Shown here in pieces: positions 33,610-39,623 of a stretch of DNA of 39,623 bases; within the stretch, counting starts at the first letter, position 1, and every line of letters begins with the position of its first letter. The notes beneath the pieces were generated by a model. It had not been told where the DNA came from, did not search any database, and saw nothing but the letters and a program-made list of their open reading frames with translations. The stretch lies in NCBI GenBank assembly GCA_017853375.1, contig JAFMJP010000004.1, positions 1-39,623 on the forward strand, read 5' to 3'. Origin of the DNA: Actinomycetota bacterium (GTDB lineage Bacteria > Actinomycetota > Acidimicrobiia > Acidimicrobiales > Ilumatobacteraceae). A program made the position numbers and the translations under genes.

Positions 33610-36600
33610 CTAGCGAAAGTCGCGGGCCGCCATACGAATCGGCACACGCAGTTCGGTGAACTGCTCCCCGATCACGTTCACCACACCGTCGGCGTATTGC
33701 ACGCGTCCGCGCACCAGCAAGGCACTCGCCCGACGCAATACCTCGGCATGGCGAACCCAACACCCACGCGAACACAACACGTTGATGAGTCCGGTTTCAT
33801 CCTCGAGGCTGAAGAAGGTGGTTCCTTTGGCGGTCATGGGACGTTGACGATGCGTCACCACGCCGGCCACCAATATTCGTGCTTCTGGTTGACGTGCCAC
33901 CAACTCATCGAGTTCGGTAGCGGTGACCACGCCCAGTTCACGCAGCGAATCACGGAGAAACACCGTCGGATGTCCGTCGGGCGAAACACCCGTCGCCCAC
34001 AAATCCGCAACTGCTTCCTCGACCGGCTCCATGCCGGGCAGGTGCGGGGTGGACAACGTGGCGGTCCCCACGAGGCGATCCGCCGACGACTCCGCGAGTG
34101 CGCCGGCATTCCACAACGCCGTTCGTCGCGACACATCGAATGCTTCACCGAACACGCCGGCAGTGGCAAGTGCCTCGAGTTGCTTCACCGAGAGGCCGGG
34201 CACGCGACGCACGAGATCCTCCGTGTCGGCGAACGGCCGTGCCGCCTCGATACGGGCGGCGAGCTCGGCTCCGATACCGCGCACCGAACCGATGCCGAGG
34301 CGGACGGCGAGCCCACCCGTGGAGCGTGAGTCGGTTTCCAACCATGCACCCGCGCGCGATGCATTGATGTCGGGGGTGCGCACCACCACCCCGTGTCGAC
34401 GTGCATCCTGCACCAACGTGTGGGGAGACCAAAACCCCATCGGCTGCGAATTGAGCAACGCCGCACAAAATATCGCCGGCTCGTGCAGTTTGATCCACGC
34501 CGAGGAGTACACGAGATAGGCAAAGCTCACCGAGTGACTCTCCGGAAAGCCGTAGTTGGCGAATGCCGACATCTTGTCGTAGATCTCGTCGGCAATTGCA
34601 CCGACGATGCCGCGTTGCGCCATTCCTTCGTACAAACGGTCGCGCAGACGGGCCATGCGTGCACGCGAACGTTTCGACCCCATTGCTTGACGCAACTCGT
34701 CGGCCTGCGTGGGGGTGAAACCCGCGACATCGATCGCCATTTGCATCAGTTGTTCCTGGAACAACGGAACACCCAGCGTTTTTCCGAGACTGTTCTCCAG
34801 CAACGGGTGCAGGTACGTCACCGGCTCGAGTCCGTTGCGACGACGAATGTACGGATGCACCGAACCACCCTGAATCGGTCCCGGGCGAATGAGCGCAACC
34901 TCCACCACGAGGTCATAGAAACGTCGTGGCTTCAGTCGCGGCAACGTGGACATTTGCGCGCGGGATTCCACCTGAAACACTCCGACGCTGTCGGCCCGAC
35001 ACAACATGGCATACACGTCGTCTTCTTGCGGGATTTCCGCGAGGTCGATTCGTTTGCCGCGAAACTCCGCGATGTAGTCGGTGGCACGGTGCAACGCCGA
35101 CAACATGCCGAGCCCGAGGAGGTCGAACTTCACGAGATTGATTGCGGCACAGTCGTCCTTGTCCCACTGCAACACGCTGCGCCCCGGCATGGTGGCCCAC
35201 TCCACCGGGCACACCTCGCTGACGGGACGATCGCAAATCACCATGCCACCGGAGTGGATACCCAAATGCCGCGGAGCATCCTGCACGCGCCCGGCCAACT
35301 CCACCACCAGGTCGGGAACGGTGACCTCACGCTGGCCCTTGATGGAACTCCACGAATCGAACCGACGACTGAACGCATCTTGTTCGGCCCCCGAGTAGCC
35401 GAGCGCCCGCGCCATGTCACGCACGGCAGAACGAGCACGATACGTAATCACATTCGCCACCTGTGCCGCATGCAGTCGCCCGTAGCGCTCGTACACGTAC
35501 TGAATGACCTCCTCGCGTCGATCGCTTTCGATGTCGAGATCGATGTCGGGTGGACCATCACGCTCGGTGGACAAGAAACGCTCGAACAACAAGCCGAGCG
35601 ACACCGCATCGGCCTTGGTGATGCCGAGCGAAAAACACACCGCGCTGTTGGCTGCGCTTCCGCGACCCTGGCACAAAATGTCGCTACGTTCGCAAAACTG
35701 CACGATGTCCCACACCACGAGGAAATAGCCGGCGAATCCCAACCGTTCGATCACCGACAACTCATGATCGATGGTGCGCCATGCGCGCGAACGCAACGAC
35801 AGGTCTTCATGCACACCCAACGGGCGCTCGCCGTAGCGACGCCTGCCTCCCGCTTCGGCAAGTTGTCGGAGAAACTGGATTTCATTCAGCCCACCAGGAC
35901 ACGGATACGGCGGCAACTTCGGTGCGATGAGCGACAGATCGAACGCTGCGTGCCGTGCAACCTCGGCAGCACGAGCGACCACACCCGGGTATCGCGCAAA
36001 GCGCCGTACTTGTTCCGTCGCGCTACGCAAACATGCGGTGGCAGCCGGTGGAAGCTGCGGATCGAGATCGTCCAAACTGCGACCATGACGCACTGCGGCA
36101 AGTGCGCACGCCACCACGTGGTCGCCCGGCACGGCATAGGACACGTCGTTGGTGGCCACCGACTCCACCCCGCACACTGCGGCAACGTCGACCAGCGCAT
36201 CGTTGCGCCACACATCCAATGGGTCGCCGTGATCCCACACCTCCACCAATACGCGATCACGACCGAATGCGTCGATCAACGACTCGAGTGATCGCCGTGC
36301 AGCGCGCGGCCCATCGGCGTGCAACGCACGCGTCAGCGGACCTTCGATGGTGCCGGTGAGCACGAAGCAACGATCACCCACACGCTCGGCCAGGGACGCG
36401 ACATCGAACACCGGTTTCGACTTTGCGCCACGCATTTGCCCATCGGTGAGCGCCTGCGACAATGCCACGTATCCCGCCGGACCGTCAGCGATGAGCACCA
36501 GGTCGCCATGCGGCCGAGCGGCCGTGTCACACGCACCATTGCGGTCGTTTGCATCCGCACGACCGCACGACACCTCGGCGCCGAACACGGTGCGCACCCC

Positions 36601-36783
36601 CACTTCGCGTGCAGCTTGGGCGAATCGCACCACGCCGTACAGACCGTGACGGTCCGTGAGTGCCAGCGCACTCAACCCAAGTTCGTGTGCCACCTCGACG
36701 AGACGTTCGGGCGACGACGCTCCATGCAGGAACGAAAACTGCGAACGACAGTGCAATTCGGCGTATTCACCGCGCAACGACAC
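33610..36783 (-). CDS. dnaE2: Error-prone DNA polymerase III alpha subunit DnaE2 (ImuC)
   Basis: 1057 residues from a GTG directly abutting the NUDIX stop. Translesion polymerase of the SOS mutasome. Order: PHP domain with AELHCRSQFSFLHGASSPERL and ALTDRHGLYG, polymerase palm with acidic catalytic motif PDIDLDIESDRREEV (about 410), GRGSAANSAVCF, finger and clamp-binding regions, and an OB-fold C-terminus (ILVAGVVTHRQRPMTAKGTTFFSLEDETG). The SOS box and -10 element end 6 bases before the GTG, so the mRNA is probably leaderless and LexA-controlled. Slightly shorter than the mycobacterial enzyme as recalled. Confidence 0.95.
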   Translation of the reverse strand: MSLRGEYAELHCRSQFSFLHGASSPERLVEVAHELGLSALALTDRHGLYGVVRFAQAAREVGVRTVFGAEVSCGRADANDRNGACDTAARPHGDLVLIADGPAGYVALSQALTDGQMRGAKSKPVFDVASLAERVGDRCFVLTGTIEGPLTRALHADGPRAARRSLESLIDAFGRDRVLVEVWDHGDPLDVWRNDALVDVAAVCGVESVATNDVSYAVPGDHVVACALAAVRHGRSLDDLDPQLPPAATACLRSATEQVRRFARYPGVVARAAEVARHAAFDLSLIAPKLPPYPCPGGLNEIQFLRQLAEAGGRRRYGERPLGVHEDLSLRSRAWRTIDHELSVIERLGFAGYFLVVWDIVQFCERSDILCQGRGSAANSAVCFSLGITKADAVSLGLLFERFLSTERDGPPDIDLDIESDRREEVIQYVYERYGRLHAAQVANVITYRARSAVRDMARALGYSGAEQDAFSRRFDSWSSIKGQREVTVPDLVVELAGRVQDAPRHLGIHSGGMVICDRPVSEVCPVEWATMPGRSVLQWDKDDCAAINLVKFDLLGLGMLSALHRATDYIAEFRGKRIDLAEIPQEDDVYAMLCRADSVGVFQVESRAQMSTLPRLKPRRFYDLVVEVALIRPGPIQGGSVHPYIRRRNGLEPVTYLHPLLENSLGKTLGVPLFQEQLMQMAIDVAGFTPTQADELRQAMGSKRSRARMARLRDRLYEGMAQRGIVGAIADEIYDKMSAFANYGFPESHSVSFAYLVYSSAWIKLHEPAIFCAALLNSQPMGFWSPHTLVQDARRHGVVVRTPDINASRAGAWLETDSRSTGGLAVRLGIGSVRGIGAELAARIEAARPFADTEDLVRRVPGLSVKQLEALATAGVFGEAFDVSRRTALWNAGALAESSADRLVGTATLSTPHLPGMEPVEEAVADLWATGVSPDGHPTVFLRDSLRELGVVTATELDELVARQPEARILVAGVVTHRQRPMTAKGTTFFSLEDETGLINVLCSRGCWVRHAEVLRRASALLVRGRVQYADGVVNVIGEQFTELRVPIRMAARDFR

Positions 36784-37347
36784 TCACTCACGATAGCGAA
36801 CATATGTTCGTAGGGCGATGGTGAGGCCGCCGCGCAGTCCCGGATCGGCAACGGCATACGCCTCCTCGGGAGTAAACCAGCGTGCATGCGGGCTTTCGCC
36901 CTCGCCAGGCTGCGGATCTTCGTCACCGGCCAGCAACATGTACCGCACGTCGAAGTGCCGGTGTCCCCGCGGACCTGGATGCACATCCAGATGGATGAGG
37001 AGCGGACCATCGGGCGGATGGGTCACGGACATTCCCAACTCTTCCTCCGATTCGCGCACTGCAGCGTGGGCAGGATGCTCACCGTCATTGATGTGTCCGC
37101 CTGGCTGCAACCACAGCCCGAGGCGCTTGTGCAAGTGCAACACCACACCACGTCGACCCACCACCAGCGCCGATGCGGTGACATGACGTACGTCTGCATG
37201 TTCGTCGAACGGCGCGTCGAGCCCTGGCACCACCGTCAAGAACTCATCGATGGACTCTCGTTCACGTTCGTCGACCGGTGTCGCAGCGGCAAAGTGTGCA
37301 CGCAGCGCACCGAGCACTTCGGCGTCATGCGGCGAAGTAGCGGGCAT
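36784..37347 (-). CDS. NUDIX hydrolase
   Basis: 187 residues from MPATSPHDAEV; the earlier part of the track ORF has no support. The complete Nudix box GHINDGEHPAHAAVRESEEE-LG (about 105-127) indicates a metal-dependent hydrolase of nucleoside-diphosphate-linked substrates, but specificity cannot be read. It lies 52 bases after imuB and its stop codon touches the dnaE2 GTG. Its last codons (RTYVRYRE) are also the LexA box and -10 of dnaE2. TACCGT 7 bases before its ATG may be a promoter of its own. A pool-cleaning role with the mutasome is an attractive inference only. Confidence 0.9.
   Translation of the reverse strand: MPATSPHDAEVLGALRAHFAAATPVDERERESIDEFLTVVPGLDAPFDEHADVRHVTASALVVGRRGVVLHLHKRLGLWLQPGGHINDGEHPAHAAVRESEEELGMSVTHPPDGPLLIHLDVHPGPRGHRHFDVRYMLLAGDEDPQPGEGESPHARWFTPEEAYAVADPGLRGGLTIALRTYVRYRE
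36790..36811 (-). promoter_or_regulatory. SOS (LexA) box and -10 of dnaE2
   Basis: GCGAACATATGTTCGT (36796-36811) contains the perfect palindrome CGAACATATGTTCG, matching the actinobacterial LexA pattern GAAC-N4-GTTC. TATCGT (36795-36790, minus strand) directly abuts it and ends 6 bases before the dnaE2 GTG. The whole element lies in the coding end of the NUDIX gene. Confidence 0.85.
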
Positions 37348-37399
37348 CGCACCCACGGTAGTGCTCGCACTCCCTACCGGTATCGGTGGCACTCGCGTC

Positions 37400-38956
37400 T
37401 CACGCGTACCATGCCGCAAGTCGCCACACACGTCGTTCGAGCACGGCAATCATCGCGCGTGTCTGCTCGGCGCCGCCTTCACGCAACAACAGTTGCAAGC
37501 GCACGGCGCGACGCGCACGGCGCGCATCCCACCAGCACTCCTCGATCGGCCACGGACCCGCCCATGCCAACACGTCGTAGGTGCTCGTGCGCATTCGCAC
37601 GACGGTCGGTTCGTCGCTCATCACATGACGCGAGGTAACGCGCACGGGTTGTCCGTCGGCGCCACACACGGCAATTTCCCACCCGGTGTCGTGAGCGTCC
37701 GACACGGCATCAAACACCAACGACGGCGCAGGCGACGGCAACGAGCCGCGCCACACCACCGGCATGGTCGTCTCGCGTGCGATGCGACGTTCGAGATCCA
37801 CCGCATCGCTCCGCACGAACTCGAACCACCGCGCCGGATCGCGGCCACCGCGCCACGTTGGAATGGTGACTGATTCCGCCCCGTGCATGTCGGCCACACG
37901 GCGAATTGCGCGTTGTGCGTGGCGATCGCCGTCACGCTCCCCGCCCCACAGCGCGGCTTGACGCCCGACATTGGCCACCACCTGCTCGGGCGACAATCGC
38001 ACACCCACCACTCCACTGGTGGGTGCATCGTGTTGGATCCAGGCATCGAGTTGCCAGCGGACACTTTCGACGATTGCACTCGCGCTCCAACCATCGGCGC
38101 GATACCACATGCGTTCGCTGCGCTCGCCGTGGTCGGACTCGATCAACACATGCAGTCGTACTACGGCCAAACCGTGCGCCACCACATGCTCCACCACACT
38201 GGTGGCAAGTTCATCGACCATCACCAACACCGCGTCGCGCGATTCAACCGGCGCATCGAACTGTCGTGCACACACCCGATCGGGTGGTGGCGCAACCGTC
38301 AGCGGCGGATGGCGGTCCATGCCGTGTGCCAACCGAAACAGATCTCGACCAAACGCACCGAGTCGAGCAATGAGGTCGGGCTCGCTCAGCGTTGCCACGT
38401 CACCAAACCGATACAACCCGAGACGTTGCAGAAGCGACACCACCTCGCGATACGACGCAACATCGTCGGCACCCGGAACCCCCGCCCCCACGGCACCGAC
38501 GACCTCCACGCACTCCACCAAGGCCTGCACCGGCGTATCGGCCAGAACGTTGCGTGACGCACCGGGAGCAACGACGTACGGAGTACCCGTATGCAAGGAA
38601 TGTCGTGCAGCGATTGCAGCAGCAAGGCGGCCATCAGCGATACCGACGCCGTAGAGCGGCCGCGCTGCGCCCGTACCTTGTGCTGCATCCAGGCTGCCAT
38701 GCATCGTGCCGAGCTGCTGCTCGATTGCTGCTCGCACCAACGACGCCAACGCATCGTCGCCGCCGACGTAACGCGACGGGCCTCGCGTGGCAAACACGAT
38801 GATGCCCGGCGCAGTGACTTCCACCAACGGCACGTGGGCCGTCACCGCACGAACGATGGGCTCGAATGCGCTACGCGCGCTACGACCAATCGCGTCGGCA
38901 TACGACGACCAGTGCGGAAACTGGACGACTACGACGCGTGTTGGTTGGTCACGCAT
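37400..38956 (-). CDS. imuB: ImuB, inactive Y-family polymerase-like mutasome subunit
   Basis: 518 residues from MRDQPTRVVVVQFPHW; it overlaps the imuA end by 28 bases. Y-family fold but the first metal aspartate region reads VQFPHW and the usual SxDEAF motif reads APGIIVFA, so it should not polymerise; ImuB instead links DnaE2 to the sliding clamp. A helix-hairpin-helix-like VVSLLQRLGLYRFGDVATL is present, and RQAALWGG at about residue 350 fits the QxxLW clamp-binding motif. Confidence is high because of the imuA/dnaE2 setting. Confidence 0.92.
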   Translation of the reverse strand: MRDQPTRVVVVQFPHWSSYADAIGRSARSAFEPIVRAVTAHVPLVEVTAPGIIVFATRGPSRYVGGDDALASLVRAAIEQQLGTMHGSLDAAQGTGAARPLYGVGIADGRLAAAIAARHSLHTGTPYVVAPGASRNVLADTPVQALVECVEVVGAVGAGVPGADDVASYREVVSLLQRLGLYRFGDVATLSEPDLIARLGAFGRDLFRLAHGMDRHPPLTVAPPPDRVCARQFDAPVESRDAVLVMVDELATSVVEHVVAHGLAVVRLHVLIESDHGERSERMWYRADGWSASAIVESVRWQLDAWIQHDAPTSGVVGVRLSPEQVVANVGRQAALWGGERDGDRHAQRAIRRVADMHGAESVTIPTWRGGRDPARWFEFVRSDAVDLERRIARETTMPVVWRGSLPSPAPSLVFDAVSDAHDTGWEIAVCGADGQPVRVTSRHVMSDEPTVVRMRTSTYDVLAWAGPWPIEECWWDARRARRAVRLQLLLREGGAEQTRAMIAVLERRVWRLAAWYA

Positions 38957-39582
38957 GACAAATCGAGCGTTGCCTCGCGCGGCACCGGACACCGTCGACC
39001 ACCCACACGCACATGCACGAGTCGCTGCGTGATGTGCGAGCCGCCGCGCTCGATACCCGACCACGAGACGGTGTCGGCATGCACGTCGAGATCGGCAGCG
39101 AAGACACGCGACGCGGTACGGCTCGCAGGAGACGACAACGCGCCGGGAACGTTCACCACCAACAACACCGACTGACGCGCGACGATGCGCGACTGCAACC
39201 GGCGAGCGTCGTGCTCGGTGAGCGACGCAGGCGGAGCAACGATGAGCACGTCAAAGCCTTCGACGAGTGCCGCCACCGTGGTCACCCACTCACGACTCGC
39301 CATCGGAGGTTGCGCGAGCACGAGACGCTCGATCGCCACACCTGCTTCGACTGCTGCACCCACACCAAGGTGCGGTACGCCGACCACCGCCAACCACGAT
39401 CCGGCCCGAGTGGTTGCCGCCGAGACGGCGAGTGCCACGCTCAGCGCAGCGTCGCCGGTGCAGGCCACCGTGCGACCACGCACCACTCCACCGTCGGCAA
39501 ACAACGGCAACAGCGACGGAGCAACAGGCAATGGGGCACGCGCAGTTGGCACGCCGAGACGAGAACGCAGGTCAGTAGCCAC
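38929..39582 (-). CDS. imuA: ImuA-like RecA-fold mutasome protein
   Basis: 217 residues from GTG (VATDLRSRLGVP); the 11 further codons in the track lie inside the promoter. It looks like the actinobacterial ImuA (ImuA') with a RecA-like core: VVRGRTVACTGDAALSVALAVSAA in place of a strict Walker A, GSWLAVVG, and FDVLIVAPPASLTEHDARRLQSRI. Walker residues are eroded, so ATP use is doubtful. It starts the SOS cassette imuA-imuB, followed by NUDIX and dnaE2. Called from weak motifs plus neighbours and a LexA box. Confidence 0.87.
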   Translation of the reverse strand: MATDLRSRLGVPTARAPLPVAPSLLPLFADGGVVRGRTVACTGDAALSVALAVSAATTRAGSWLAVVGVPHLGVGAAVEAGVAIERLVLAQPPMASREWVTTVAALVEGFDVLIVAPPASLTEHDARRLQSRIVARQSVLLVVNVPGALSSPASRTASRVFAADLDVHADTVSWSGIERGGSHITQRLVHVRVGGRRCPVPREATLDLSCVTNQHAS

Positions 39583-39588
39583 CCCCAC

Positions 39589-39610
39589 ACCATAGCGAAC
39601 AGGTGTTCGC
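39589..39610 (-). promoter_or_regulatory. SOS (LexA) box and -10 of imuA-imuB
   Basis: GCGAACAGGTGTTCGC (39595-39610) has perfect 6-base arms around a 4-base centre. TATGGT (39594-39589, minus strand) abuts it and ends 6 bases before the imuA GTG at 39582, the same layout as at dnaE2. Confidence 0.87.
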
Positions 39611-39623
39611 CCCACTACGGTGA

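Follow-up and report, generated by a model that had tools for sequence, protein, structure and literature searches.

Predicted LexA operators paired with leaderless-type -10 elements at imuA and dnaE2 are conserved among Acidimicrobiia

In Mycobacterium tuberculosis, a TANNNT hexamer lies 7-12 bp upstream of 73% of primary transcription start sites, with no -35 consensus (PMC3898074), and lexA is leaderless, its translation start being its transcription start (PMC2897130). The mycobacterial mutasome is split into two transcription units, imuA'-imuB and dnaE2, under the control of LexA and PafBC (PMC10421592), and in Streptomyces venezuelae dnaE2 is bound by LexA and induced by damage (PMC9380542). 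The LexA operator and the leaderless -10 are thus each known elements; a literature search for leaderless LexA-controlled mutasome genes returned no earlier description of the two combined at both of these genes across Acidimicrobiia.

Here, we analysed a stretch of 39,623 nucleotides (the window), which is contig C113 of a small, most likely freshwater Ilumatobacteraceae (Acidimicrobiia) MAG of 1.58 Mb in 144 contigs. The window encodes a split mutasome on its minus strand (Table 1). DnaE2 and ImuA' are each recognized above the curated cut-offs of their models. The imuB gene had no Pfam match and is matched weakly by DNA polymerase IV models (28 bits), and its position after imuA fits the assignment. 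A NUDIX hydrolase gene lies between imuB and dnaE2. Its product ends in ..RTYVRYRE and its TGA stop abuts the dnaE2 GTG, an arrangement that could allow translational coupling. TANNNT-N6/7-RTG without a LexA box is present at the corresponding NUDIX start in each of the 10 genus members examined, and because of this conserved start of its own the NUDIX gene may be expressed constitutively inside the SOS cluster. We found no convincing terminator between imuA/NUDIX and dnaE2, and read-through from imuA or NUDIX could add leadered dnaE2 transcripts. The last 234 bases of the window (39390-39623), imuA promoter included, overlap the end of contig C9 (L275, G000) at 98% identity; the window therefore ends at an assembly break, perhaps reflecting strain variation.

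Table 1. Genes and predicted promoter elements of the mutasome region, in window coordinates.
Feature	Position	Strand	Remarks
LexA operator of imuA (predicted), GAACACCTGTTC	39597..39608	-	exact palindromic consensus
Predicted -10 of imuA, TATGGT (-12 to -7)	39589..39594	-	TANNNT class, offset 2 from box
imuA start codon GTG, inferred transcription start (+1 at 39582)	39580..39582	-	6 nt past -10
imuA (imuA', mutasome accessory factor)	38929..39582	-	NF058630 repair_Rv3395c, 95.9 bits, cut-off 65
imuB (inactive Y-family polymerase-like), overlapping imuA end	37400..38956	-	weak DNA polymerase IV model matches; directly after imuA
Predicted -10 of NUDIX gene, TACCGT-N7-ATG	37355..37360	-	leaderless type without LexA box
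NUDIX hydrolase gene, last codons hold dnaE2 operator and -10	36784..37347	-	PF00293, E=3.2e-15
LexA operator of dnaE2 (predicted), GAACATATGTTC, within NUDIX frame	36798..36809	-	exact palindrome
Predicted -10 of dnaE2, TATCGT	36790..36795	-	offset 2 from box, invariant in genus
dnaE2 start codon GTG, inferred transcription start (+1 at 36783)	36781..36783	-	first possible in-frame start after TGA
dnaE2 (error-prone DNA polymerase)	33610..36783	-	NF004225, 1373.6 bits, cut-off 939

The actinobacterial SOS consensus GAAC-N4-GTTC occurs in exact form only twice in the whole window, at the two operators of Table 1. Read on the minus strand, the imuA promoter is GAACACCTGTTC-GC-TATGGT-GTGGGG-GTG and the dnaE2 promoter is GAACATATGTTC-GC-TATCGT-GAGTGA-GTG, so that each gene has a TANNNT hexamer six bases before a GTG start. 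If GTG is counted from +1, the imuA operator spans -26 to -15. A preliminary description of this DNA had reported the same architecture at both genes, and the box, hexamer, six-base gap and GTG start are indeed as it claimed. Its statement that the hexamer directly abuts the palindrome was incorrect, as GC intervenes between GTTC and the hexamer at both promoters, one of these two bases lengthening the dyad. The reported lack of a Shine-Dalgarno sequence was borne out: there is no AGGAGG-like stretch in the 14 nt from box to start at imuA or dnaE2, and none fits because these 14 nt are occupied by the hexamer. We likewise found no sigma-70 type -35/-10 pair in the region. For imuA, an alternative in-frame GTG lies 6 bases upstream (39588), and the codon at 39582 is supported as the start because it is kept among relatives and is ATG in G003, while the upstream GTG is GAG in G001, G011 and G012. 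For dnaE2, a start further upstream is impossible, as the codon just before the GTG in this frame is the NUDIX stop. Across the 26 predicted genes of the window, the distance of TANNNT ahead of start candidates also peaks at 6-7 nt (6/13 cases).

The layout is strictly maintained within the genus. Wherever genus members have the regions, the sequence is GAACACCTGTTCGCTATGGT at imuA and, at dnaE2, GAACATATGTTCGCTATCGT; the letters of the imuA operator are identical in every member having that region and its -10, at offset 2, is invariant, while the dnaE2 operator is invariant, and the start 6 nt after the -10, in 10/10 members. The dnaE2 promoter is also under selection as DNA. Third codon positions of the NUDIX gene in ten genus members vary at 37/41 sites upstream and at only 1/9 in the promoter block (p = 8e-6), and their near fixation inside a coding frame means that the block is conserved as a promoter.

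Relatives across the order follow the same rules. At imuA, a box lies within 40 nt of an in-frame start at 50/58 loci, and when the candidate hexamer closest to N6-7 was taken as the -10, a TANNNT or GATNNT hexamer could be assigned at all 50; its distance from the start is 6 nt at 39 loci and 7 nt at 9 (48/50 at 6-7 nt). The dnaE2 layout is less uniform: 47/56 loci have a box no more than 40 nt from an in-frame start and 9/56 do not, and among the 47 boxed loci the same assignment gives 6 nt in 27, 7 nt in 5 and 8 nt in 5, hence 32/47 at 6-7 nt, with 10/47 lacking an assignable hexamer or having a spacing outside 6-8 nt. The spacing proposed earlier for the window is thus conserved in relatives at both genes. 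We then compared a fixed pattern (offset 0-3, N6-7, RTG) with shuffled sequences, using one genome per genus and only those with an assignable hexamer; the matching step of this null is independent of how the -10 was chosen. The pattern was found at imuA in 35/40 genera (shuffled mean 0.18) and at dnaE2 in 22/33 (shuffled mean 0.23). For the exact form, offset 2 and N6, the counts were 20/40 at imuA and 11/33 at dnaE2 against shuffled means of 0.02 and 0.01, far too many for the layout to be due to chance. A further sample of 78 named dnaE2 loci had the same dominant layout; no such box was found at the dnaE2 loci of Actinokineospora, Micromonospora and Winogradskya in that sample.

In relatives with larger genomes (L030-L045, L104-L131), DnaE2 has an N-terminal extension of ~60 residues, beginning MGFNNP or MGW.NP, upstream of YAELHC, which is missing from the genus of the window. 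We had considered that these relatives transcribe dnaE2 solely from the imuA operon, a reading dropped once the extension (MGFNNP...) was taken into account, with boxes lying ~200 bp upstream of YAELHC. In four loci, L058 (G015), L093 (G051), L074 (G052) and L032 (G020), the LexA palindrome continues on both sides so as to take in the -10, with symmetrical arms reaching up to 12 nt beyond the box and perfect dyads of 36 bp or longer. Such extended dyads number 4 at imuA (0.32 in shuffled sequences) and 2 at dnaE2 (0.13 in shuffled sequences). They create mirrored -10 elements, which makes divergent transcription possible.

Set against the described systems, the layout combines two known parts. 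As for lexA of M. tuberculosis (PMC2897130), the translation and transcription starts of a LexA-controlled SOS gene would coincide, and lexA of this genus is itself similar, with TACGCT-N6/7-ATG and a near-box over the -10; here, unlike in that example, the layout is found at mutasome genes, has an exact box just upstream of the -10 and recurs across the order. With the leaderless promoters of actinobacteria (PMC3898074, PMC4633059) it shares a TANNNT ~6-7 nt before RTG and no -35 consensus, but differs from them in having a LexA operator in the promoter spacer. S. venezuelae (PMC9380542) resembles the case predicted here in having dnaE2 as a LexA target, although the boxes there are imperfect and at position -68, unlike the exact promoter-adjacent box here. 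The mycobacterial analogy on which the preliminary description drew stands in part: the genes, the LexA-type boxes and the two transcription units are those of the split mutasome (PMC10421592), but imuA' of family f53 (Mycobacterium-like) has leaders with a Shine-Dalgarno sequence in most sampled genomes. The layout is therefore not a general actinobacterial mutasome trait; families f43 and f61 of the phylum likewise include leaderless-like imuA starts. Control by PafBC as in mycobacteria was considered and rejected, as the PafBC-like TGTCGGTG element seen at some f53 imuA' genes is absent, with no TGTCRGTG upstream of any of the 58 imuA loci.

What separates a leaderless from a leadered reading is which element the start codon follows. 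A start fixed by the box should lie at a constant distance from it; of the box-to-start and -10-to-start distances, however, the second varies less. In G016, G027 and G050 the -10 lies 10 nt past the box, yet the start remains 6 nt beyond the -10, hexamers at offsets 1 and 3 keep 6-7 nt to the start, and with GATACT-type hexamers that abut the box the starts are mostly at 12-13 nt. The start thus moves with the -10 rather than with the box, so the promoter appears to set it, as expected of a leaderless mRNA. We therefore favor, with a probability of roughly 0.86, the reading in which LexA represses two separate leaderless promoters, one for imuA(-imuB) and one for dnaE2, the layout being kept by selection rather than copied as a cassette. 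In this model, LexA would bind GAAC-N4-GTTC (-26 to -15), thereby occupying the spacer immediately ahead of the TANNNT -10 (-12 to -7), and keep RNA polymerase off. After damage, RecA would trigger LexA cleavage, and polymerase would use the -10 without a recognisable -35, initiating at the first base of the start codon. Most likely, the imuA and dnaE2 mRNAs begin at the start codon itself and would be translated without a leader or Shine-Dalgarno sequence. Purifying selection across the order would keep the box adjacent to the -10 and a gap of six to seven bases between -10 and start. The two promoters would then be alike because both obey the same two distance rules, box to -10 and -10 to start. 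Overall, the architecture is real and conserved, and is well explained by a LexA operator joined to a leaderless -10, which agrees with the leaderless, LexA-covered promoters first proposed for both genes.

Other SOS genes of this genome place the pairing in a wider setting. Contig C109 carries a lexA gene whose product has a DNA-binding domain (PF01726, 6e-23) and an S24 autocleavage domain (PF00717, 5e-32), and there is also a RecA-like match on this contig with a box in the promoter of its gene. The lexA promoter, TTGACC-17-TACGCT-N7-ATG (N6 in several relatives), has a near-box that overlaps its -10 and looks leaderless-like. Divergent from lexA is a gene whose small product is weakly matched by LysM (L132, 1612-1995, minus strand), located behind a conserved double LexA box; it has GAACACCCGTTCGCTATGGT, then a leader with the second box and a GAAAGGA Shine-Dalgarno sequence. 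Its position resembles that of the SOS cell-division inhibitors adjoining lexA in other Gram-positive bacteria. In the gene taken as recA, the box is within a TTGACC-17-TAAGGT promoter, followed by a long leader with AAAGGA. Given these layouts, the use of the box and -10 pair as an SOS module extends beyond the mutasome genes here; leaderlessness looks to be a feature of imuA, dnaE2 and lexA, with leaders apparent at recA and the LysM gene. We rejected the idea that all 40 genomic boxes form an SOS regulon: many are chance occurrences, because most are inside genes and a reversed control pattern gave 22.

The similarity of the imuA and dnaE2 promoters had earlier been suggested to reflect selection for equal timing of the two transcripts or duplication of a promoter cassette. 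Equal timing would suit products that act together in mycobacteria (PMC10421592), and both genes do hold a LexA box beside the -10 in most relatives. However, a comparable leaderless arrangement is seen at lexA, and at the LysM gene the same box and -10 precede a leader, so the likeness of imuA and dnaE2 seems to reflect generic constraints on a LexA site and a leaderless -10. The box centres also differ between the promoters (ACCT vs ATAT) and may confer different LexA affinities. Moreover, among 28 genera with both promoters, same-genome pairs were no more alike in layout than shuffled pairs (8 vs 6.75, p = 0.32). Selection for equal timing is not needed to account for the data, and we regard it as improbable. 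Another reading holds that transcription really starts upstream, the hexamers being incidental and the mRNAs leadered, as the imuA' leaders of most sampled Mycobacterium-like genomes could suggest; it is contradicted by the missing Shine-Dalgarno sequence before either GTG, the 6-7 nt spacing at imuA and the joint movement of -10 and start, and we judge it very improbable. Duplication of one cassette to the second gene is the least credible, since the 20/26 bases shared by the box-to-start modules in G000, the same GAACATATGTTCGCTA at both genes of sister genera and a slight same-genome excess in the 25 nt upstream (0.34 vs 0.30, p = 0.02) and in the dinucleotide that follows the box (p = 0.03), which shared base composition may explain, are outweighed by a dnaE2 copy embedded in NUDIX codons, only 35% identity in the 40 nt upstream of the two boxes in G000, and no excess of same-genome likeness in layout, -10 (p = 0.45), N4 (p = 0.14) or spacer (p = 0.21).

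The reading of two separately maintained leaderless LexA promoters raises the question of whether Acidimicrobiia are under selection for leaderless mutasome expression as such, which would then not be a mere by-product of leaderless promoters being common. We consider this unlikely; if true, it could mean, for example, that imuA and dnaE2 mRNAs can still be translated under damage or stress that hampers normal initiation. With leaderless-looking lexA, imuA and dnaE2 and leadered-looking recA and LysM genes under one repressor, the effect of leader type on SOS output becomes a question that can be asked. More broadly, the layout provides a base-level rule for the promoters of SOS mutagenesis in Acidimicrobiia: box, 0-3 nt, -10, 6-7 nt, start codon. 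In this largely uncultured group, the rule also helps to fix start codons.
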